Positions 186 through 30,610 of a stretch of DNA of 34,267 nt are shown here, in pieces (the stretch's first letter is position 1; each line of letters begins with the position of its first letter). The stretch comes from Bacteroidales bacterium. Its GTDB lineage: Bacteria > Bacteroidota > Bacteroidia > Bacteroidales > Marinilabiliaceae. The notes below the pieces were generated by a model. That model searched no databases. It saw only the letters and a list, made by a program, of their open reading frames with translations, and was not told the DNA's origin. The translations under genes were made by a program, and so were the position numbers. The stretch lies in contig JAKSLG010000025.1 in assembly GCA_024401295.1 (NCBI GenBank), positions 1 to 34,267 on the forward strand, read 5' to 3'.

Positions 186-280
186 CCAAGCAAGAAGAGA
201 CAATAAACGAGAGCATGAAACAGGAAAAAAACGCCGTTCGTCACCGATTTTGCGCCGTTCGTCAAAAAGAGCAACAAAAA

Positions 281-312
281 TTTGTTCGTTGACCATATTT
301 TATGTTTATTTG
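281..312 (+). promoter_or_regulatory. Candidate Bacteroidota promoter for the large secreted protein
   Basis: TTTG at 281-284 is followed after 20 bases by TTTATTTG at 305-312, close to the Bacteroidota consensus TTTG-N19/20-TAnnTTTG (the TA is TT here). It would place the transcript start near 316-319, about 45 bases before the preferred ATG at 364. The promoter lies between the two arms of the inverted repeat, so it would turn together with the gene if the segment inverted. Confidence 0.4.
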
Positions 313-363
313 CACAACGTTTTAAAACACAGAAAATTAACAAAATTAAATAAATTCATGCTT

Positions 364-3300
364 ATGAAAAAACTGATGACTCTGTTAGCGTCACTCATGG
401 TCTTCTGCTCCTTTGCATGGAGCCAAGACAATGTGATGACTGTTAATGTGAAACTGCCACGTGGTGTAAAAATCACAGGGACAAATGCTTCGGGAGAGGA
501 TCCCATTGTAAAGAACGACGATGGTTCTTGGACTATCACTTATGAAGGTTCCAATTCTCGTGAAATTAAACTTTCTAATGCGGATGATTGTGTTTACTTC
601 ATAGATGGTAATGATGCAAACGGTGGACAGCTTAGAAAGGCAGATTTTTATGAATATCAAATCGAAATTAGTAAAGATTTCGTGGGAAGTTGCAGTGTTG
701 AGGTGTGTCTTAAGAAGGATATAATCTATTTCCATGAAATCAGTTATGATTTTGCGGTTGAGGCGGGAGAGAATGTTTATAATCAGACTTCGCATGACCT
801 AGGCCGATTCGTCAAGAAAGGTGCTGACGTTACGTTGAAAAGTGCGCCGCCGAGCGAAGACAATGAGTCTCGTAGTTTCTACTATTTGGACGGAAATGAC
901 AACGAGTGGAAGCCGTTCTCTCGTAAGGATCTCGAAGAAGGGAAAGTACTCAAAAATGTACAAAACCTTGTTTCTGGCTATCTGATACAGTCTGACGTAA
1001 GCTTGACTTCTAATAGACCAGACTCATTGTTCAATATCACACCGAAAAATGTCAGCAATAATAAAGTTGGCGACGAAAGTGAACATCCATACACATACAT
1101 TTATAGAGGATCACAGAGTATTTTTGTTAGAACGGATTTTCCGGAATCAGTGAAGCCTGTGTATATGCGTAGTGATGAAGAGAAAGATGGAGATGAAGAG
1201 GAAGATGAAGGAGAAATGCTTTTGGGCAATATCGGCAGCCCGTTTGGAGATGTTGTCTTATATCAAAAGGAAAAAGACCCTACATACTGCAGGATCGATT
1301 TGCCAAGAGACCGTAATGGCAGTCCTCTTTGTGAAATATCTACTGTCTCACCAACTGAACACAACGACGAAATAATAGAATATTATGCCCCAGGTAATCC
1401 AGAAATACCTGAATTCTATTATGTCAAAGAAGGTACGGAAATTAGAGTACGACGTTATGAATGGCTTAATACTGTGTTTAATTTATACTTAAATGATTAT
1501 GCCGATGAAAAAATTGGTGAAGATAACGGAACTATAACAGTCAATGGCAGTGTCATAATATTGATGTCGTGTGAAGTTAAAAATCCCAATTGGGTATACA
1601 CAGGATATGTCGGTTGTCACAATGTGAAGGTTGAATATACGGGTCATACGTATGTGGGTGTGACATTAAACGAAGACGGAAATGAAGTTGAAACAGAAGG
1701 TTGGATTGCACTTGTAGATTATACCGGCAACTACAGTAATTGCACAATCTATGGCTATGTTGGCGATTTAACAAAAGTCACTGTTCCCTCATCTCTTAAA
1801 GATGGCTCCGGTGGTCAAGATAGACTTAATGTCGCTAAAATTAATATTGATGGCTTTAATGGCACGAAAATCGAAGAGTTGAAATTTGAGGACGAATATC
1901 TTCGAAGTTGGTATGATGAACCGACGCTATCTGGTCAGATCACAGTAAATGGCGCTCTCAAAGAGGTTGTTGTGCCTACGTATGAGATGTATCGCCAATC
2001 GTTAGAACCATCTCGTGAAGGTTCTGAAGGTCGACCAACAGGGACCTTTGGAAATGCAAAAATAGTTCTTGATCCGAATAATACGGAAACAATAAACGAT
2101 CTGATCTTGTATCAGAATGGTATTGAGGACAGAATTCCGCTGTACACCCTCATTGGAGTTGCTGACAACGCAGGTTTGGTCGTAAGACGTCCTTTTATTG
2201 GAAAAGACTATCATATAACGGCTGTTGGTCCAATGCAAGCGAACGATAATGTCCTCTACTTCGGTCTGACTGGAGATAAAGATGTTTATTATGGTGATGC
2301 CAATTTCATTCAGATGACATCTCTCAGAGGCCTGTGCGCAGGTGGCAAGGGTAATGGTCTTTTTGAGCCATATCCAGGCGTGAATATCGGCGAAAATGTG
2401 GATATGTTTGGCACTTCTGATGACGCATTTGATGTCTCTATCTTTGAAGCGCTGGACAATATCAGCAAGGTAGAAGATGCAGGAGTTGAATATGACAAGG
2501 AGAACGACATCCTTACGGCAAAGGTAAGCAACAATACGAACATTGGAGATGTTGCCACATTCGTCAACAGCGGTATCTCTCTCGCGGAGAACATCAACAT
2601 CTCGCTTGTTGAGGATATCGACTTGACAGAGTCTGCCACACCACAGACATGGTCGCAGCTCGGCACCTCAGAGAACCCATTCACGGGCATCTTCGATGGC
2701 GCAGGCCACAGCCTGAACGTGGGTGAGATTGCAGGCTCTCTCTTCGGCACAATCGGCCACGAGGCTGAACTCGGCGAGGAAGACCCGACATTCGGCATCA
2801 AGGACCTCAGCGTCATAATCGGTCAGTCGGCAGCAGATGTAAATCAGGGCGTTGACTCAGACGACATGCTCGAGAAATACTTTGGTCTGCTCGCACAGAA
2901 CAACTACGGCACAATCAGCAACGTGATAGCTTCCGGCCTGATATATCTGGCCAACGACGAGGACGCCAAGAATGCCGTTGCGACCCTCATCGCCAACAAC
3001 GAAGGCGTGATGGATCATGTGGTTGGCTTCTTCGGCACGGAGGAAGAGACAGCCAACAAGGCTTCTATCATCGTGATCCAGAACATGGGCCGTGGCCGTA
3101 CGAAGGGCCGCGTCTCGAAGTCTGCATCGAACGGCAAGGCAAAGGGCAATGCTACAATCAGCTATGAGCCAAACGAGGCCGAGATAAAGCTCAACTACCG
3201 CCTCTACACCGACGAGGAGTTTGCGGGCGGCGAACCTGCATACTGGCTCAACTTCGACGGCGAAGGCTACTCGGGCAACTTCAATGGCGAATGGGCAAAG

Positions 3301-3708
3301 GGCTCAAAGCATCCGGTAAAGGCTGTTGCCGACGGTCAGGGCGCAGCAGTAAGAATCAGCTACGAGGTCGAAGGCCGTGAAGAAAACGAGGTGAACGTCA
3401 AGGGAGCCTTCTTCGCCAACGACAAGACAGGCCTCAAGCTCGACTACGACATCAAGCCTGATGCCATCAAGATCAACGGTTCCGTTGTCGATAGCGACCC
3501 GGCAAGCGGCTCTGCAGTCGTAAGCCTTGTCTCAGGCGCACGCAACAATAAGGGCGAGATGGTTGTGACGCTCCACTATAATGCGACAGGTGTCAAGGAT
3601 ATCGAGGCAGACAAGAAGAACTCTGTTGTCAAGACTCTCGAGAATGGCCGTGTCGTAATCATCCGCGATGGCAAGAAATATGATCTTGCAGGACGCGTGG
3701 TTGAGTGA
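364..3708 (+). CDS. Large secreted protein with GLUG-like beta-helix region
   Basis: About 1114 aa. The ATG at 364 (or 358) is preferred over the upstream in-frame ATG at 250 because it opens a clear signal peptide (MKKLMTLLASLM..., probable cleavage near residue 20) and the sequence before it is unlike an export signal. Residues about 270-284 form an acidic run (EEKDGDEEEDEGE). Residues about 730-890 resemble GLUG/right-handed beta-helix adhesin repeats, with a W-x-x-LG...PFTGIFDGAGHSL pattern followed by FG, I-x-x-L-x-V and GLLAQNNYGTISN blocks. The last 25 residues (LENGRVVIIRDGKKYDLAGR...) resemble a short C-terminal beta motif often seen on secreted Bacteroidales proteins and may act as a sorting signal, which is an inference. 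Base composition changes sharply within the gene. The specific function is unknown; a surface or secreted adhesin-like role is plausible. Confidence 0.75.
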   Translation: MKKLMTLLASLMVFCSFAWSQDNVMTVNVKLPRGVKITGTNASGEDPIVKNDDGSWTITYEGSNSREIKLSNADDCVYFIDGNDANGGQLRKADFYEYQIEISKDFVGSCSVEVCLKKDIIYFHEISYDFAVEAGENVYNQTSHDLGRFVKKGADVTLKSAPPSEDNESRSFYYLDGNDNEWKPFSRKDLEEGKVLKNVQNLVSGYLIQSDVSLTSNRPDSLFNITPKNVSNNKVGDESEHPYTYIYRGSQSIFVRTDFPESVKPVYMRSDEEKDGDEEEDEGEMLLGNIGSPFGDVVLYQKEKDPTYCRIDLPRDRNGSPLCEISTVSPTEHNDEIIEYYAPGNPEIPEFYYVKEGTEIRVRRYEWLNTVFNLYLNDYADEKIGEDNGTITVNGSVIILMSCEVKNPNWVYTGYVGCHNVKVEYTGHTYVGVTLNEDGNEVETEGWIALVDYTGNYSNCTIYGYVGDLTKVTVPSSLKDGSGGQDRLNVAKINIDGFNGTKIEELKFEDEYLRSWYDEPTLSGQITVNGALKEVVVPTYEMYRQSLEPSREGSEGRPTGTFGNAKIVLDPNNTETINDLILYQNGIEDRIPLYTLIGVADNAGLVVRRPFIGKDYHITAVGPMQANDNVLYFGLTGDKDVYYGDANFIQMTSLRGLCAGGKGNGLFEPYPGVNIGENVDMFGTSDDAFDVSIFEALDNISKVEDAGVEYDKENDILTAKVSNNTNIGDVATFVNSGISLAENINISLVEDIDLTESATPQTWSQLGTSENPFTGIFDGAGHSLNVGEIAGSLFGTIGHEAELGEEDPTFGIKDLSVIIGQSAADVNQGVDSDDMLEKYFGLLAQNNYGTISNVIASGLIYLANDEDAKNAVATLIANNEGVMDHVVGFFGTEEETANKASIIVIQNMGRGRTKGRVSKSASNGKAKGNATISYEPNEAEIKLNYRLYTDEEFAGGEPAYWLNFDGEGYSGNFNGEWAKGSKHPVKAVADGQGAAVRISYEVEGREENEVNVKGAFFANDKTGLKLDYDIKPDAIKINGSVVDSDPASGSAVVSLVSGARNNKGEMVVTLHYNATGVKDIEADKKNSVVKTLENGRVVIIRDGKKYDLAGRVVE

Positions 3709-7513: not shown

Positions 7514-8485
7514 ATGTTTTGCTTCAGAAAAGATATAATATTGCATTTTTTTGTTTTATTTTGCATTTTGGAATGTGAAACATCTTCGGCTCAGAACGAA
7601 ATGCAGTTCAGTGGATATGCCAACATGCCTATTGTTGTCAACCCCGGAGCAGCTGGACGGTCGGGCGCTTTTGAGGCTGTCGGAGCATTCCGAAAGCAGT
7701 GGGTTGGCTTCGAAGGAGCGCCTCAGACAACGATTCTTGGACTCGATGGCGAGGTGAGGTTTCTCGGAAACTTCCATGGCGTTGGAGCAAGCGTCTTTCA
7801 CGACAAAGAAGGTGCGCTGACGACGATGAATATAAATGCCAGCTATTGCTATCACATTGAGCTGAATAAGGGACTCCTCGGGTTGGGAGTAAGGCTTGGA
7901 GCATTGAATGTCGCATTCAAGGTGTCGGATTTGAATCCGTCCGTCAGCGGTGGCGAGAACGACTATCACCAATCGAGTGATATGGCTCTTGAAGGTGCCG
8001 ATGACAGTGGAACGACATTTGACGTAGGCTTTGGTGCTTTCTATCAATCAGATAAGAGCTATCTCAGTTGGTCGATGCTTCATCTTACATCGCCTACTGT
8101 CGAGATGAAAAGTGGCGCTAAAGTCAATGCGAGACCAGTCATGACGTTTGGAGCAGGTCGCAGACTTGGCAACAATGGAAACATTGAGATAGAGCCAAGA
8201 ATCTTCTTCAAAACGGACTTCGCGTCCACTCAGATTGAGATGAGCGGGGCGGTCAATGTGAAGAAAAAATTATCGTTCGGGGTGGGATATCGATTGCAAG
8301 ATGCAATTTTTTTCCAGCTTGGAGTAAACCTTTCTAATGGTGTATGCGTAGGATACACATACGACTTGTGTATTTCCGACCTTCGCCGATACAATAGTGG
8401 ATCGCACGAAATCGCTGCAAGCTATACGTTTAGCATAGATGTAGAGAAGCGAACGAAGAGATATAAAAGTGTAAGAATACTTTAG
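7514..8485 (+). CDS. porP: Type IX secretion outer-membrane protein, PorP/SprF family
   Basis: 323 aa. It has a signal peptide (cleavage likely after Ala26), then the family's N-terminal QFSGYANMPIVVNPGAAG and an early FRKQWVGFEGAP block, followed by alternating strands of a beta-barrel (for example HFGVGYR-like and YTYDL segments at the C-terminus). PorP/SprF proteins are outer-membrane partners of the type IX secretion/gliding machinery and link to the GldK-GldN ring or to secreted cargo. It is the first gene of the operon, 18 bases before gldK. The 7354-7513 gap upstream is AT-rich; I see no exact TAnnTTTG box with a matching -33 box in it. Confidence 0.93.
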   Translation: MFCFRKDIILHFFVLFCILECETSSAQNEMQFSGYANMPIVVNPGAAGRSGAFEAVGAFRKQWVGFEGAPQTTILGLDGEVRFLGNFHGVGASVFHDKEGALTTMNINASYCYHIELNKGLLGLGVRLGALNVAFKVSDLNPSVSGGENDYHQSSDMALEGADDSGTTFDVGFGAFYQSDKSYLSWSMLHLTSPTVEMKSGAKVNARPVMTFGAGRRLGNNGNIEIEPRIFFKTDFASTQIEMSGAVNVKKKLSFGVGYRLQDAIFFQLGVNLSNGVCVGYTYDLCISDLRRYNSGSHEIAASYTFSIDVEKRTKRYKSVRIL

Positions 8486-8503
8486 GTAGATATATAGGCT
8501 ATT

Positions 8504-9829
8504 ATGAAGAATATATTTGTTTTTGCATTTGCTCTGCTGTTGCTGAGCAGTTGCGGTGGAACTGGATCAGGAGAATTGGTGGGCGTTTCGCGCAATGCCA
8601 ACTTCTTTGAACCAAACCCTTATGGAATGTTGTTCATTGCTCAGGGAAGTTTCAATATGGGACAGAATGAGCAGGACGTAGCGCATACTTCAAATGCGAA
8701 TTCTAAAACTGTAACGGTTCGTTCGTTCTGGATTGATGAGACAGAAATCACCAATTCGGAATATCGCCAGTTCGTATATTGGGTCCGCGACTCAATTGCT
8801 CGTCGTCTTCTCGGCGACCAGTTCGATGAATTCCTTATTACTGAGGACGCTCTCGGTAATGAGATCGATCCTCCATTCCTTAACTGGGACGAGGAACTCG
8901 ACTGGACAAACACAGAGTATGCTGAGATTCTCGAGGAGATGTATTATCCAGAGAAGGAGCGTTTCTTCCGCCGCAAGGAACTCGACACACGCAAGCTCGA
9001 ATACGAGTATGAGTGGGTTGACCTCCAGCAGGCTGCAAAGCGTTCTAATCGCTATAACTTCGAGACAAAGCAGTATGAAGGCCAGGTCTACAATGCAAAG
9101 GGCGAATTGAATGATATAGCCGATCGTTCGTCTTTCATCATGAAGGACCGTGTCCTCGTTTATCCTGATACACTCTGCTGGATTGCAGACTTCACATATT
9201 CATTCAATGAACCATGGACTCAGATGTATTTCTGGCACCCAGGTTTCGACGAATATCCTATAGTAGGTGTGAGCTGGAAGCAGGCTACTGCATTCTGCAT
9301 CTGGCGTAGTAATCTCTTGAACAACTTCCTCCAGTCAGAAGGTCAGCCATTTGCAATGGACTACCGTCTGCCAACAGAGGCAGAATGGGAATATGCAGCT
9401 CGCGGTGGTATCAAGGCTGGTGTATATCCTTGGGGTGGTTACTATACACGTAACAACAGAGGTTGCTTCGTTGCAAACTTCAAGCCATTGCGTGGCCGTT
9501 ACGTAGATGATGGCGCAGCTTCAACAACAGTTGTCGCATCTTACGCTCCAAACGATTATGGTTTGTATGACATGGCAGGTAACGTAGCAGAATGGACATC
9601 TAGCGCATTCGATGAGTCTGCATACGCATACACACACGACTTCAACCCAGATTACAAGTACAACGCTCGTCCAGACGAGTCGCACGTGATGAAGAGAAAG
9701 GTAATCCGTGGCGGTTCATGGAAGGACATCGCATATTACATGCAGTGTGGTACGCGTACATATGAGTATCAGGATTCCGCAACATCATACATTGGTTTCC
9801 GTTGCGTCCGTGATTATATTGGTGAATAA
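8504..9829 (+). CDS. gldK: Type IX secretion lipoprotein GldK/PorK
   Basis: 441 aa. The lipoprotein signal ends at LLLSSC with lipidated Cys17, so the protein sits on the periplasmic face of the outer membrane. The rest is a formylglycine-generating-enzyme-like (FGE-sulfatase) fold: GSFNMG near the start, YRLPTEAEWEYAARGG, YDMAGNVAEWTS, VIRGGSW and GFRCVRD at the end. In GldK this fold is structural; with GldN it forms the large periplasmic ring of the type IX secretion system. It is the second gene of the operon, 39 bases before gldL. Confidence 0.96.
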   Translation: MKNIFVFAFALLLLSSCGGTGSGELVGVSRNANFFEPNPYGMLFIAQGSFNMGQNEQDVAHTSNANSKTVTVRSFWIDETEITNSEYRQFVYWVRDSIARRLLGDQFDEFLITEDALGNEIDPPFLNWDEELDWTNTEYAEILEEMYYPEKERFFRRKELDTRKLEYEYEWVDLQQAAKRSNRYNFETKQYEGQVYNAKGELNDIADRSSFIMKDRVLVYPDTLCWIADFTYSFNEPWTQMYFWHPGFDEYPIVGVSWKQATAFCIWRSNLLNNFLQSEGQPFAMDYRLPTEAEWEYAARGGIKAGVYPWGGYYTRNNRGCFVANFKPLRGRYVDDGAASTTVVASYAPNDYGLYDMAGNVAEWTSSAFDESAYAYTHDFNPDYKYNARPDESHVMKRKVIRGGSWKDIAYYMQCGTRTYEYQDSATSYIGFRCVRDYIGE

Positions 9830-9868
9830 CAAATAAGAAAATAATAGTACAAGAAATAAATTAGCATT

Positions 9869-10705
9869 ATGAGTATACAAGAATTAGTAGAAAGCCCAGG
9901 CTATAAGAAGGTTATGGCTTATGTTTACGGCTGGGGTGCAGCTGTTGCGATTGTAGGAGCATTGTTTAAGATCATGCACTTCCCTGGTGCAGGCGTCATG
10001 CTTGTTGCCGGTCTTGGTGTAGAAGCATTGATCTTCTTCCTTTCAGCATTTGAACCACCTCACGCAATGCCAGATTGGACACTTGTTTACCCAGAACTCC
10101 TCGGTCTCGACGAAGAGGATCCAGCAGACAAAATCGGTAAGAAGTCATCTGCACACAACACAGGTAACGGTGGCAATGGTGGTAGCGAGCTTTCTGCACT
10201 TGTTTCTGCAGGTGCTATTGACCAGACAACAATCAATCAGCTCTCTGAAGGTGTCAAGAAACTTGCAAGCACAACTTCACAGATGGCTGATCTCACAGAC
10301 GCAACTTCTGCAACAAAGGCATATGTTGATAATGTAAAGGTTGCAAACGACTCGTTGAGCCAGTTCGCAGCTGCTCAGTCACAGGTTGCTGCTGTTGGTT
10401 CTAAGTTCTCTGAATCAAGCAACAAACTTGCTGAGTCTATCGCATCTCAGGCAGAAGTATCAAAGCAGCTTAACACAAACATGACAGCAGTAAATGCTGC
10501 ATATGAAAAGCAGCTCTCAGGTTTGAACAACCAGCTTAAGTCAACTGAGTCACTCGCATCTGGTCTCAACACTATTTCGAGCGAACTTGCAGCATCTGTT
10601 CAGAGCGTACAGCAGTATCGTGAGCAGATTGCTTCACTCAGCAAGACTGTTGGTGAGTTGAATTCGATTTACGGTAATATGCTTAGCGCGGTTACTAATC
10701 GATAA
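9869..10705 (+). CDS. gldL: Type IX secretion/gliding motor protein GldL/PorL
   Basis: 278 aa. Two N-terminal membrane helices (about residues 16-33 and 41-61) carry the charged residues typical of the GldL motor: GALFKIMHFPGAG between the helices (Lys34, His37) and Glu52 within the second helix. The cytoplasmic part is Ser/Ala/Gln-rich and heptad-like (about 115-278), consistent with long helices or coiled coil. With GldM it forms the proton-driven inner-membrane motor of the type IX system. It is 44 bases before gldM. Confidence 0.96.
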   Translation: MSIQELVESPGYKKVMAYVYGWGAAVAIVGALFKIMHFPGAGVMLVAGLGVEALIFFLSAFEPPHAMPDWTLVYPELLGLDEEDPADKIGKKSSAHNTGNGGNGGSELSALVSAGAIDQTTINQLSEGVKKLASTTSQMADLTDATSATKAYVDNVKVANDSLSQFAAAQSQVAAVGSKFSESSNKLAESIASQAEVSKQLNTNMTAVNAAYEKQLSGLNNQLKSTESLASGLNTISSELAASVQSVQQYREQIASLSKTVGELNSIYGNMLSAVTNR

Positions 10706-10749
10706 TTTGAGTTAATTCACGGAATTATTAACCCTAAATTCGATTATCG

Positions 10750-12306
10750 ATGAGTGGTGGTAACTGTCCCGAAACCCCGAGACAAAAAATGATCGGCATG
10801 ATGTATCTCATGCTGACTGCCATGCTTGCCTTGAACGTGTCGGGAGACCTTCTGAATGCTTTTATCCTCGTGGATAACGGCATCAAGAACTCGACAGAGG
10901 TGGTTGACCAGAAGATACGTAAGCAGTATTATGACTTTGATGCTGCGAATACGCAGAATCCAAAGAAGGCCGGCGATAAGTATAAGTTGGCTCTTGAATT
11001 GAAAGAGAAGGCTGATGCATTGTATAACCAGATCCAGTATTACAAGTGTCTGATGGTTTACACTGCCGATGGCCCAGGTGATGAAGAGAACCCATTTACT
11101 CCAGACAACTATCTGTCTGTAAGCAATCAGGATATTGCTGCGCAGGTTATGATTGTTGAGCAGGGTGGTGCACGAGGCGATTCTCTTAAGGCGATGATTG
11201 ACGAGTATCGTGAGTATCTCATTGGTATTTGTGGCGATGATTCAGCTCGCGTAACATCTCTTAGAGAGCAGTTCAATACAGATGATATTGAGAATGAGCC
11301 AGGTGAATGGGAGCCATGGATTGCAAAGATTACTGAGCACATCCCAATGGCAGCAACAATGTCTATCTTGAGTAAGGTTCAGAATGACGTCCGCAGTTCA
11401 CAGTCGGACATTGTGAATGTTCTTTATGCAAAGGTTGACGAGGCATCGTTCAAGTTCACAGGTATCCGTCCTCTCGTTATTCCTGAGTCGAACTATGTGC
11501 TCAGAGGCGGACGTTTCAAGGCTGATATCATGTTGGCAGCGTACGACGAGACAATGGACCCTATCGTAACTGTTGCTGGTGAGAAATTGCCAGTTGAGGC
11601 AGGTCAGGGTAAGTATGAAGTGGCTGCTACATCAGTTGGTTCGAAGAAATTTACAGCAACAATTCAGATTCCAGATCCTGTAACAGGTGATTTGAAGTCT
11701 TATTCTGTTGATTCAGAATACGAGGTTGGCGAGCCTTCAGTCGTAGTTTCTCCAACAAAGATGAACGTATTCTACATTGGTTTGGACAACCCTGTTGATA
11801 TCTCTGCAGCAGGTATTCCTTCGAGCGATTTGAAGGTGTCTGCAACAGGTGCAACAATTTCGAAGTCAGGCAGTGGCTGGATTGTCCGTCCAAGTGCAAG
11901 TGCAGCTAAGGCTAGCATTAATGTCTCTGCAGATGTTAATGGTAAGGTACAGTCGCTCGGTTCTAAGGAATTCCGTTTGATGCGAGTACCAAATCCAGAG
12001 GCTTCTATTGCAGGTCTCACAGGCGGTAAGATTAAGAAGGGCGTTTTGTCAGCTCAGTCTGCCGTATTTGCTGAGATGAAGGACTTCGTGATGGATGTTC
12101 AGTTTAAGGTTACGAAATTCACTATCTCTACGACAAAGGGTGGATTCCTTACGAGCCTTACATCGAATGATCAGACATTCACAAAGGAGCAGAAATCGAT
12201 GTTAAGCGGTTTGGCAAAGGGTGCTAAGTTCTACCTCGAAGATGTTCAGGCAACAGGTCCTGGCGGTTCACGTAAGCTTTCATCTCAGTCATTCACAGTT
12301 GATTAA
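10750..12306 (+). CDS. gldM: Type IX secretion/gliding motor protein GldM/PorM
   Basis: 518 aa, the usual family length. The N-terminus MSGGNCPETPRQKMIGMMYL runs into a single membrane helix (about residues 14-36, ending NVSGDLLNAF), followed by a long periplasmic region of several beta-rich domains. GldM spans the periplasm and transmits motor force from GldL to the GldK/GldN ring. It is followed after 19 bases by gldN. Confidence 0.97.
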   Translation: MSGGNCPETPRQKMIGMMYLMLTAMLALNVSGDLLNAFILVDNGIKNSTEVVDQKIRKQYYDFDAANTQNPKKAGDKYKLALELKEKADALYNQIQYYKCLMVYTADGPGDEENPFTPDNYLSVSNQDIAAQVMIVEQGGARGDSLKAMIDEYREYLIGICGDDSARVTSLREQFNTDDIENEPGEWEPWIAKITEHIPMAATMSILSKVQNDVRSSQSDIVNVLYAKVDEASFKFTGIRPLVIPESNYVLRGGRFKADIMLAAYDETMDPIVTVAGEKLPVEAGQGKYEVAATSVGSKKFTATIQIPDPVTGDLKSYSVDSEYEVGEPSVVVSPTKMNVFYIGLDNPVDISAAGIPSSDLKVSATGATISKSGSGWIVRPSASAAKASINVSADVNGKVQSLGSKEFRLMRVPNPEASIAGLTGGKIKKGVLSAQSAVFAEMKDFVMDVQFKVTKFTISTTKGGFLTSLTSNDQTFTKEQKSMLSGLAKGAKFYLEDVQATGPGGSRKLSSQSFTVD

Positions 12307-12325
12307 TGATTTAATTATTTGAAAT

Positions 12326-13204
12326 ATGAAGAAGTTTATTTCATTGTTGGCCATGGCGATGTTCGCTACTGTGTCATTTGCACAGGACGATGCGTCAGAG
12401 GTTGAGCAATCACCTTTCAAAGGTGTTGACAACGTTGCCAAAAAGGAGCATATTGCAAATAAGAAAGGCATTCCTTACGTTCATGTTCGTGAGGCAGATG
12501 TAATGTGGTCAAAGACAATTTGGCGTATCATTGATATGAGAGAGAAGATGAATCACCCTCTCTATTATCCGACACAGCCACAACTTGATGGCCGTCGTTC
12601 TATGGTACGTGTGATGCTTGACGCAATCAGCCATGGTGAGCTCACAGCTTATGATGCACAGATTGGTATCGGTCATGAGTTTGAACGTCGTCTTGACTAT
12701 GCTGCTGTTCAGTCAAAGATGGGTGCTGGAATTGATACAGTTGAAGTCCGCAATCCAGATACAGGTCTCTACGAGCGTCAGGTTGTGACATCAGAAATGG
12801 ATGTTACGCTTGCGAAGAAGCTTCTTGTTAAGGAAGTATGGTTCTTCGATAAGAAGTATTCTCGTATGGATGTCCGTATCATTGGCATCTGCCCAATTCT
12901 TGAGAAGGAGTCTGAGGACGGCGAGCGTGTTGACCAGATGTTGGGTTTCTGGGTTTACTTCCCAGAGCTTCGTCCACACTTGATGGTTCAAGAAGCTTAT
13001 AACACCAAGAACGAGATGCAGCGAGATTCATTTGACGATCTTTTTGCAAAGCGTCGTTTCGGAAGCTACGTTTATTCCGAGGCGAATGTATATGATAACC
13101 GAACAATTCTTGAATTTGCACAGGGTGTAACAGATACAAACCTTGAAGCTGAAAGAATAAAGAGTGTTCTTTTCCAGAAAGAGCACGATGTTTGGGAATA
13201 TTAA
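12326..13204 (+). CDS. gldN: Type IX secretion periplasmic ring protein GldN/PorN
   Basis: 292 aa with a signal peptide (MKKFISLLAMAMFATVSFA, cleavage after Ala19). Family features include VREADVMWSKTIWRIIDMREKMNHPLYYP near residue 55, the WFFDKKYSRMDVRIIGICP block, and LGFWVYFPELRP. It binds GldK to form the outer-membrane-associated ring. It is the last gene of the operon and is followed by a terminator. Confidence 0.97.
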   Translation: MKKFISLLAMAMFATVSFAQDDASEVEQSPFKGVDNVAKKEHIANKKGIPYVHVREADVMWSKTIWRIIDMREKMNHPLYYPTQPQLDGRRSMVRVMLDAISHGELTAYDAQIGIGHEFERRLDYAAVQSKMGAGIDTVEVRNPDTGLYERQVVTSEMDVTLAKKLLVKEVWFFDKKYSRMDVRIIGICPILEKESEDGERVDQMLGFWVYFPELRPHLMVQEAYNTKNEMQRDSFDDLFAKRRFGSYVYSEANVYDNRTILEFAQGVTDTNLEAERIKSVLFQKEHDVWEY

Positions 13205-21253: not shown

Positions 21254-22366
21254 TTATCGCAGTTTTGAAGGCGAAACGCCCTTTATCTTTTTGAAATATG
21301 TTGCGAACTGCGATTGCGAACTGAATCCGAACTCAAAAGCCACTTCCTGAATAGTCTTTTGAGTGCATAGGAGAAGGCGTTCGGCTTCGTTAGTGATATA
21401 TTCAGCAATAAGCTGCTTTGGCGATTTGCCCGCCACGCGACGTGTGATTTGGGCCAGATATCTGTGAGTTACGCAAAGCATGTTGGCATACGTATGTGTG
21501 TCTCGAATCTGCTTGTGGCAGTTGGCGACGTGCTCCATGAACATGTTGTAGAGCTGCATCTGTCTGTTGCTGACATCGTGGCTATTCTCGCGTTGCATCA
21601 ATCGATGAGTGATGCCGAAACTCGATTCGAGCGAATAGAGCACGAGTGATTTGATGTAGTCGTGGGCACGTGCGACGGCATTTTCAGTCGATTCGCCCAT
21701 TGCAAGGAATGTCGTGATGGCAGATGACAAGCTGCCATGTATGCCATGCGTCTTCCAGTTGTCTGTGTCTGGCAGGGTGAAAAGCGAAACGTTGTCATTG
21801 GCCATGAGCACGTTGGTCAGCACCCCTTTGGCATGACGGCCACCGCATATGAGAACCGCCTTCGGCCCGCTCTTGATGAGCTCTGTTGCGGCTTCGATCA
21901 TGCCCGTCGAGCCAACGATGGAATGATTGAGCAGGATTTCGGCATCATGAAATTTGAGAACCAGAATGTCGGTCATAGGCCATATTGTGCGCTTCATGGC
22001 GTCGATGGCATCGTTGTCCATCAGCGATCTGCCTTGCGACGATTCGATGCTCATGCCACACACGATGTTCGGCATTGCGTGAATTTCCTTTGTTATGGCA
22101 TCGATGATGTCCGGCGTCCCAACCATGCCGATTTTGATGGCATTCGGGCGAATGTCGTTCAATAGTGACCTGATCTGGTCTCCGATGATGTTGGTAGGAA
22201 GATTGAAGACCGAATGTATGCCTTGGCTATTCTGCACAGCAACGGAAGTGAGTGCTGTGACGGCATATGCCCCAAGTGCTCCGATTGTGCGTATGTCGCC
22301 CTGAATACCCGCGCCACCCGTTGAGTCTGAGCCAGTTATTGATAGTATGGTTGTCAATCGTTCCAT
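21254..22366 (-). CDS. Degenerate ThiD-like kinase domain fused to AraC-type DNA-binding domain
   Basis: 370 aa from the ATG at 22366. The upstream in-frame start at 22435 is rejected because a good promoter lies between the two. Residues 1-245 follow the hydroxymethylpyrimidine (phosphate) kinase fold: ILSITGSDSTGGAGIQGDI, LGAYAVTALTSVAVQN, IKIGMVG. Key motifs are altered: the NTHGTGCT anion hole/catalytic Cys is KTHGIHGS (206-212), the DPVM segment is GMSI (104-107), and TPN is VLK (136-138). Residues about 265-370 form a complete AraC/XylS domain with two helix-turn-helices (YANMLCVTHRYLAQITRRVAGKSP; IQEVAFEFGFSSQSQFATYFKKIKGVSP). The likely reading is a transcription factor whose kinase-like domain senses an HMP, pyridoxal or related ligand; this is an inference. 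No thiamine or B6 synthesis genes lie nearby. Confidence 0.88.
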   Translation of the reverse strand: MERLTTILSITGSDSTGGAGIQGDIRTIGALGAYAVTALTSVAVQNSQGIHSVFNLPTNIIGDQIRSLLNDIRPNAIKIGMVGTPDIIDAITKEIHAMPNIVCGMSIESSQGRSLMDNDAIDAMKRTIWPMTDILVLKFHDAEILLNHSIVGSTGMIEAATELIKSGPKAVLICGGRHAKGVLTNVLMANDNVSLFTLPDTDNWKTHGIHGSLSSAITTFLAMGESTENAVARAHDYIKSLVLYSLESSFGITHRLMQRENSHDVSNRQMQLYNMFMEHVANCHKQIRDTHTYANMLCVTHRYLAQITRRVAGKSPKQLIAEYITNEAERLLLCTQKTIQEVAFEFGFSSQSQFATYFKKIKGVSPSKLR

Positions 22367-22370
22367 AATG

Positions 22371-22402
22371 CAAAAATAGATATGAATAGCGATTGTACCA
22401 AA
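22371..22402 (-). promoter_or_regulatory. Promoter of the ThiD/AraC gene, nearly leaderless
   Basis: Read on the minus strand: TTTG (22402-22399), 20 bases, then TATTTTTG (22378-22371), an exact fit to the Bacteroidota TTTG-N20-TAnnTTTG consensus. The last G of the -7 box is only 5 bases before the A of the ATG at 22366, so transcription is predicted to start at or within a few bases of the start codon. Confidence 0.6.
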
Positions 22403-22563
22403 TTGCCATTCCCGTTTTGAAAATAAAAATGTCATATTTGAAATGTCAGAATGAGAACGCTGATGTCTGATATTGTAAATTTTTTTGTCAGCAAATCATG
22501 GCTTCAGGCATAATTCATCTCGATTGAAAAGCCATGAAAAAGTGACAAATGCGAAAAACTCGC

Positions 22564-29821: not shown

Positions 29822-29863
29822 CGCATATCTTTTTGCAATCATACCAGACAAATGACAATACCC

Positions 29864-30610
29864 ATGAAGAAAATAATCTATCCAGTCATCGTTCTCCTAT
29901 GTATGACCGCCATGTCATGCGCGTGGTTAGGTGTCGGCAAGAAAGCGGCAATAGGCACTCCTGTCGATCTCGGTCTCACAAGTGGCACCTTATGGGCCGA
30001 CCGCAACATTGGTGCAGAAGCTCCGGAAGAAATGGGGCAATACTATGCCTGGGGCGAGACTGCATTCAAGTTGTCTTTCGCTTTCCCAAATTATAAGTGG
30101 TGTAAGGGCTCGTATGATACACTGACCAAGTACTGCACAGACAGTTCATACGGCGATGTTGACAACAAGACTGAGCTCGACGATGTCGACGACGTTGCCG
30201 TACAAACATGGGGTAGAACATGGAAGATGCCCACACGCGAACAGCTGAAAGAACTTTACAACGAATGCTATTGGGTATTGGTCCACACATACAATGGCAA
30301 GAGAATGAATGGCTACATTGTTTATAAGGCGAGGAAAGACAGCGACAAAGGCGTAAAAACCAATGATGATGCCGCCGATGCATCATACAATGTAGCTTCT
30401 GATCCCCACATTTTCCTTCCTGCCACAGGCTACATCGATAGTAAAAACCTCTGTGACAGTTTCTATTACGGCTACTATTGGTCGCGTTCGCTCGGCACTG
30501 ACGACTCTCACGCATACTACCTCTACTTTCATTCAGACCTCGTGTATTACGACGAGTACTGCCGCGACTTCGGATTCCAGGTTCGCCCAGTCTGCAAAGC
30601 TACAAAGTAG
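29864..30610 (+). CDS. FISUMP/DUF1566-like lipoprotein
   Basis: 248 aa from the Met at 29864, which opens a lipoprotein signal (MKKIIYPVIVLLCMTAMSC, Cys19); an ATG four codons upstream (29852) is also possible. The mature part begins VDLGLTSGTLWADRNIGA and contains YYAWGET, WKMPTREQLKEL, YWSRSL and a terminal FGFQVRPVC. This pattern is common in Bacteroidales surface proteins related to Fibrobacter major-paralogue/DUF1566 domains. The function is unknown. It stands between the AlaX gene and a repeat-containing gap. Confidence 0.8.
   Translation: MKKIIYPVIVLLCMTAMSCAWLGVGKKAAIGTPVDLGLTSGTLWADRNIGAEAPEEMGQYYAWGETAFKLSFAFPNYKWCKGSYDTLTKYCTDSSYGDVDNKTELDDVDDVAVQTWGRTWKMPTREQLKELYNECYWVLVHTYNGKRMNGYIVYKARKDSDKGVKTNDDAADASYNVASDPHIFLPATGYIDSKNLCDSFYYGYYWSRSLGTDDSHAYYLYFHSDLVYYDEYCRDFGFQVRPVCKATK

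Follow-up and report, generated by a model that had tools for sequence, protein, structure and literature searches.

The question raised by this locus is whether a gene that joins a vitamin-kinase fold to a transcription regulator codes for an enzyme or for a sensor, and which pathway it serves. The gene lies in a stretch of 34,267 nucleotides (the window) from the genome of a Bacteroidales bacterium of the Marinilabiliaceae. The initial annotation, made from the sequence alone, had described an enzyme turned into a sensor for HMP, pyridoxal or a similar molecule which controls genes elsewhere. Here we surveyed the fusion in related genomes and analyzed its domains, neighbours and promoters. 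With a probability of about three in four, judged from sequence data, the fusion is a dead kinase which would sense a B6 vitamer and regulate PLP synthesis through either of two pathways.

Architecture and distribution of the fusion

The fusion gene is located at 21254..22366 on the minus strand and codes for 370 aa; it was delimited by its open reading frame, by Pfam and by homologous fusions. An alternative upstream ATG at 22435 gives 393 aa, and the start at 22366 was preferred because it has a predicted operator box and a -7 promoter element between it and the upstream ATG. Counted in the 393-aa form, the Phos_pyr_kin domain covers residues 37-270 (192.3 bits; 21626..22327, minus strand) and the HTH_18 domain of AraC type covers residues 316-393 in the same frame (76.5 bits, profile positions 1-78 of 80; 21257..21490, minus strand). 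HTH_AraC was also matched with 39.1 bits, and the AraC helix-turn-helix domain is complete. The presence of a ThiD-type kinase fold and a full AraC domain in one protein, as had been claimed, is thus borne out by both Pfam domains in a single frame. The AlphaFold model of the protein has a pLDDT of 88.3 and a pTM of 0.68, with a flexible linker of pLDDT below 50 at residues 246-264 (21575..21631, minus strand).

The kinase-like identity of the first domain was further supported by Foldseek, in which ThiD was nearest (best E 6.9e-25) and 1jxi, an HMP complex, stood among the first 13 matches. Foldseek also matched the ThiD-like pyridoxal kinases 2i5b and 4c5n, and listed 4ywr, according to its title a ThiD-like protein in non-covalent complex with a B6 compound. 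The comparison with ThiD- and PdxK-type structures that the initial annotation had proposed therefore places the kinase part nearest to ThiD and ThiD-like pyridoxal kinases. The window protein scores 183.9 bits against the ThiD equivalog TIGR00097, below the cut-off of 204.95, and 108.8 bits against the ThiD-like pyridoxal kinase family NF009077, far below the cut-off of 385. Among its Pfam matches there is neither a GntR helix-turn-helix nor an aminotransferase-like domain, as in PdxR and MocR, and no ThiN (thiamine-phosphate synthase) domain, in agreement with the claim that the fold differs from that of the ThiN-type archaeal regulators (ThiR).

The fusion was sought by a protein search in 61 related genomes and by a profile search in 393 genomes of the order. 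In total 24 distinct fusion genes were read, namely the window copy and 23 further ones in other genomes, which rules out an assembly chimera; the survey of Bacteroidales that had been suggested thus shows the same two-domain protein recurring. L121 was left out of these counts, as its contig is equal in length to that of G326 and it was taken to be the same locus. Carriers make up 10 of the 393 genomes, the own genome counted, and the fusion is also present in G004, G005, G008 and G014, which belong to the window's genus and stand outside those 10. A scan of named genomes with N-terminal patterns only gave at least 10 fusions among the best 80 of 592 relatives, all from metagenome-assembled genomes, of which nine are named as a Bacteroidales or Bacteroidota lineage and one as "uncultured bacterium"; the sources include gut samples of yak, horse and roe deer. 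In a phylum-wide scan of 395 genomes at E <= 1e-50, a setting that could miss weaker or short forms, both domains were matched in the own genome only.

A quick tree without outgroup was made from 23 fusions and 56 ThiD proteins; L119 stands outside both the tree and the motif table, hence the 23 fusions compared. The fusions all fall on one side of a branch with SH-aLRT 99, and within them the full-length forms (14 rows, SH-aLRT 96) and the short forms (9 rows, 99) are separate groups. The window fusion has the longest end branch among the fusion rows, 1.02. One genome, G054, carries two fusions, a full one at L037:7301-8380 which is divergent from pdxST and a short one at L040:7273-8187 elsewhere.

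Three motif changes had been reported for the window protein (THGTGCT to THGIHGS, DPVM to GMSI and TPN to VLK) and all three are as stated. They are also family-wide, except that the Asp of DPVM is retained in 8 of 23 fusions, so that this motif is only partly lost; its Met is found in none of the 23, against 52 of 56 ThiD proteins. The catalytic Cys is present in 0/23 fusions and 56/56 ThiD, the window protein having GIHG for GTGC, and the same fractions hold for the Asn of TPN, the position of which is taken by Lys in 13 fusions, Arg in nine and His in one. The GTG loop is lost in every fusion compared. The substrate-side segment, which had been described as well kept, is kept throughout the family: GSD, Lys78 and Gly80 occur in 23/23 fusions and Gln45 (window numbering), also the usual ThiD residue, in 22/23, the gap being in L123. 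The nine short forms are without some 45-65 residues of the ATP side, and their spacing from TPN to HG is 5-24 residues against 67-79 in the 56 ThiD proteins. In the four short forms that were scanned the best Pfam stretch ends at profile position 122-124 of 246. One short form was modelled with a pLDDT of 90.8, a confidence that makes it plausible that the pocket folds although the ATP side is incomplete.

The fusions therefore have the fold and the substrate-side motifs in common with ThiD and ThiD-like pyridoxal kinases, and differ from ThiD in the loss of Cys, TPN Asn and GTG loop, in the added AraC domain and, for the window protein, in a score under the equivalog cut-off. From this pattern we infer that the kinase domain may act as a binding domain without catalysis, in which the Lys or Arg at the TPN Asn position perhaps holds phosphate. 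Two related fusions, L122:6989-8185 and L123:6989-8155, have an altered VQN loop, by an insert in L122 and a loss in L123, and 91 and 109 residues between the TPN and HG positions instead of about 70; their sensor pocket may have changed.

Linkage to vitamin B6 genes

The fusion gene immediately adjoins pdxS (PLP synthase) in 14 of 24 cases, on the same strand in G008, G014, G090, G146, G358, G381, L117 and L124 and divergently in G054, G185, G326, L118, L119 and L120. In L123 the distance to pdxS is 5.6 kb. The window copy, G004, G005, G335, G397, L128 and the second, short copy of G054 are not beside pdxS, and in L122 and L127 the downstream neighbours run off the stretch that was read. pdxS is itself rare, being above the cut-off in 18 of 393 genomes of the order: it is found in seven of the 10 fusion carriers, adjacent in all seven, against 11 of the 383 others (Fisher p 1.3e-8, relatedness ignored). 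At 11 fusion-free pdxS loci, read for mostly about 4 kb on each side and some shorter, no fusion was seen.

The gene pdxJ belongs to the other B6 pathway. Among the 24 genomes tested it is absent above the cut-off from all nine genomes having both fusion and pdxS, and present in three carriers without pdxS, namely the own genome (G000), G335 and G397. Neither gene was found in G004 and G005, which are 84-85% complete. In the own genome, which is 75% complete, pdxS was not found and the fusion gene is not beside B6 genes.

These neighbours, together with the boxes described below, indicate that the pathway is probably vitamin B6 rather than thiamine. The initial annotation had named pyridoxal as one possible ligand, and the B6 side of its proposal gained ground by pdxST and pdxJ; the thiamine side did not, and HMP is the less likely ligand.

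Predicted operator boxes at fusion, pdxJ and pdxS promoters

Upstream of the fusion start there is a predicted operator box, TTTTCAAAACGGGAA, at 22409..22423 (minus strand; score 17.6), which ranked best against 400 sampled controls in a leave-one-out test. When the window's genus, G335, G397 and L118 were withheld from motif training, its promoter gave p = 0.046, and this site is the only one in the own genome that matches the 26-bp pattern 22398-22423 with zero mismatches. A second, weak box (score below 8) may lie 21 bp downstream at 22388..22402 on the minus strand, over the -33 region, as placed from the spacing. The putative -7 promoter element TATTTTTG was found as a pattern match at 22371..22378 (minus strand), 45 bp downstream of the box, start to start; the -33/-7 consensus used is that of Bacteroidetes promoters. 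As four bases separate this element from the start codon, the fusion mRNA may be nearly leaderless.

The motif, TTGTC-N5-GGGAA, was searched in 19 of 21 collected fusion promoters, G397 and L118 being left out; the promoters of L119, L122 and L123 stand outside the 21-promoter tests. Its log-likelihood was 127.5, against 68-78 for five shuffled sets (width 24). In the leave-one-out test 16 of 21 fusion promoters reached p <= 0.02 (400 controls sampled from 924), values that are indicative since the seed boxes came from the same set and close relatives of G397 and L118 stayed in. The box is missing in L117, L120, G008, G004 and L128 (5 of 21 promoters), three of which are beside pdxS. Boxes are often paired 20-22 bp apart, with the second often weak. 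A -7 element follows the box at 44-46 bp in 14 of the 21 fusion promoters, against 1 of 923 controls once the L127 fusion is taken out of the 924, and this distance played no part in building the matrix. In G381 a second box pair, pointing the opposite way, was noticed at L081:4506-4542 before a gene that looks FMN-reductase-like by eye; the first box of this pair is identical to the fusion's own box.

The same boxes were found before pdxJ, the promoters of which played no part in motif building. They occur in 3/3 genomes with fusion and pdxJ and in 0/7 same-genus genomes without fusion, the three sites being not independent because the own PdxJ (L102:1489-2205) shares 84-86% identity with its counterparts in G335 and G397. 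The pdxJ boxes of G397 score 17.9 and 16.5, those of G335 16.4 and 11.9, and those of the own genome 14.0 with a weaker one of 8.6, in each case 21 bp apart. The single-box p is <= 0.008 (924 controls) in these three promoters, and 0.20 at the lowest in the seven fusion-free ones. Under the same held-out motif as was applied to the window promoter, the own pdxJ promoter has p 0.034 and the other two 0.005 and 0.001, against 0.22-0.80 in six control pdxJ promoters; G009 and G013 were left out of the control sets, and G012 was included in the seven-genome test only. In the own pdxJ promoter, box and -7 element are 45 bp apart, and in the pdxJ promoters of G335 and G397 no -7 element was matched.

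A genome-wide search for the tandem pattern in 24 genomes gave six zero-mismatch matches, at pdxJ in G335 and G397, in the intergenic region between fusion and pdxS in G185, and in G010, G090 and G358. Among the divergent pdxS promoters, those of G185, L118 and L119 have a box at 45 bp; the box of G054 is weak (3.9), L120 lacks one, and in G326 a phased pattern match faces pdxS, 275 bp before the pdxS start. In 11 pdxS promoters without fusion no phased box was found, and no box above 7.5. The phased pattern has four matches in the own genome, at the fusion, at pdxJ and at two other places not at B6 genes, compared with two for the reversed control pattern. These two places are C37:13346-13398 (L269), before a KilAC-domain gene, and C36:82419-82471 (L267), before a gene that is CorA-like by eye. 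The search for a shared operator at thiamine or B6 genes, which the initial annotation had advised, has thus yielded predicted boxes common to fusion, pdxJ and some pdxS promoters.

The own PdxJ is closer to the proteins of G335 and G397, which belong to another family, than to those from seven genomes of its own genus (61-67% identical), and this suggests a likely horizontal transfer of the box-tagged pdxJ operon. In all three genomes the 3' end of pdxJ is overlapped by a gene of 226-227 aa, at L102:824-1504 (contig C15 of the own genome), L099:2196-2879 and L100:821-1504, which matches no Pfam family at 0.01. This partner gene is present in 7 of 393 genomes of the order, the three with fusion and pdxJ and four of one other genus, and in the stretches read from these four neither pdxJ nor boxes were seen. 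It may be considered a candidate new B6-related gene. The occurrence of box-tagged pdxJ operon and partner gene in distant families suggests that the regulon moves between lineages.

Proposed mechanism, alternatives and related regulators

In the mechanism we propose, the catalytically inactive ThiD-type domain would provide a pocket for a B6 vitamer (PLP, PL or PNP), and the AraC domain would bind the direct-repeat TTGTC-N5-GGGAA boxes, which mostly lie 20-22 bp from one another. The usable box nearest the promoter begins 44-46 bp ahead of the -7 element and hence would adjoin the -33 region. The predicted targets are the fusion's own gene plus pdxST, or the pdxJ operon as in the window's genome. 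Under PLP shortage the protein, free of ligand, would occupy the boxes and assist RNA polymerase at these targets, and a B6 vitamer in the former kinase pocket would end activation. Activation by the apo-form, ended by PLP, is proposed by analogy with PdxR, and this sign of control is the least certain step; repression has about one chance in four. The wider picture, in which these proteins are undescribed Bacteroidales B6 regulators with PLP in a dead active site, one operator would serve two pathways, one branch has lost the ATP side and the regulon is mobile, stands at even odds when all its parts are taken jointly.

Other readings of the same data were weighed against this B6 sensor. A regulator of the thiamine pathway which senses HMP or HMP-P and controls thiamine genes would account for the ThiD-type domain and for the kept substrate-side residues including Gln45; since Gln45 is the usual ThiD residue, the pocket might accept an HMP-like ligand. 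Yet none of the neighbours seen at the fusions is a thiamine gene, both the linkage and the boxes point to pdxST and pdxJ, and the thiamine clusters of G054 and G014, with ordinary ThiD genes inside them, are headed by TPP riboswitches, so that this was rejected as the main reading and is regarded as very improbable. No riboswitch was found at the gathering score at seven fusion loci searched or at the ThiD locus of G005 (L042), and a riboswitch in the window was discarded, as there is no Rfam match at gathering scores. NadR and RbkR are at once enzyme and regulator, and a protein that is still a B6 or HMP kinase besides being a regulator would suit the conserved fold and substrate side; the loss of Cys, GTG loop and TPN Asn in 23/23 fusions, and of part of the ATP side in the short forms, makes such a protein hardly credible.

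The window gene might also have lost its former regulon and now drift as a remnant in its own genome, a thought prompted by the missing pdxS in an incomplete assembly, the distance from B6 genes and the long end branch of 1.02. Its open frame, its kept box with the 45-bp phase and the box-bearing pdxJ of the same genome argue otherwise, and we give this little credence. It is somewhat less improbable, and still unlikely, that the fusion controls B6 synthesis in response to another signal, such as an HMP-type pyrimidine cross-signal or ATP, or with no ligand at all. The pocket keeps ThiD-type residues, and its ligand is deduced; against this, deletion of the ATP-side segment in 9 of 23 fusions speaks against ATP, pathway products usually exert the feedback themselves, as with PdxR, and B6 vitamers are substrates of ThiD-family kinases, so that the fold is able to accommodate them (the last two points after excerpts of PMC5320631). 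The B6-vitamer sensor is thus preferred, and the general idea of an enzyme turned into a sensor which controls genes elsewhere is made more credible by the lost Cys and Asn, the ATP-side deletion and the predicted operator at other loci.

Joining a vitamin- or cofactor-pathway enzyme to a DNA-binding domain is a logic common to the fusion and to ThiR, RbkR, NadR and BirA, which use other enzyme folds, other DNA-binding domains and other vitamins. The usual sensor of the AraC family is a cupin-like domain, whereas that of the fusion has a ThiD-type kinase fold; the complete HTH_18 is as in the family, and so would be binding to the predicted direct-repeat boxes, about two helical turns apart and by the -33 region. 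Closest in function would be PdxR (MocR), the apo-form of which activates pdxST, with PLP as anti-activator, in several Gram-positives according to the excerpts of PMC5320631. As depicted there, PdxR resembles the fusion in having an enzyme-derived sensor with a DNA-binding domain and, if the fusion acts as proposed, in controlling pdxST, often from a divergent gene, and in serving the PLP pathway; it differs in being made of a GntR-type helix-turn-helix and an aminotransferase-like domain instead of the ThiD-type fold and AraC domain. The fusion also has other DNA boxes, and pdxJ as an alternative predicted target. Enzyme-derived vitamin regulators are therefore already known, and the present architecture and regulon are not, as far as our literature search in open-licence papers shows, in which no description of a kinase-AraC fusion was found.

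If the proposal is true, a second and independently evolved kind of PLP-pathway regulator would exist beside PdxR, in which an enzyme's substrate pocket is reused as a gene switch recognisable by sequence and DNA site. Such a regulator would keep its job while the pathway underneath differs, pdxST and pdxJ being non-homologous, and B6 control in uncultured gut Bacteroidales would become directly testable. Annotation of the fusions' kinase domain as ThiD should be avoided, a point of consequence when vitamin pathways are reconstructed from these genomes; one such reconstruction for the gut microbiome used PdxR among its regulators, according to excerpts of PMC6593275.

Elsewhere in the window, the open reading frames at 250-3708 (1152 aa) and 29852-30610 (252 aa) are without Pfam match at E 1e-6. 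The region 7514-13204 codes for PorP/SprF, an FGE-sulfatase-domain protein, GldL, GldM and GldN, and represents a type IX secretion/gliding cluster.
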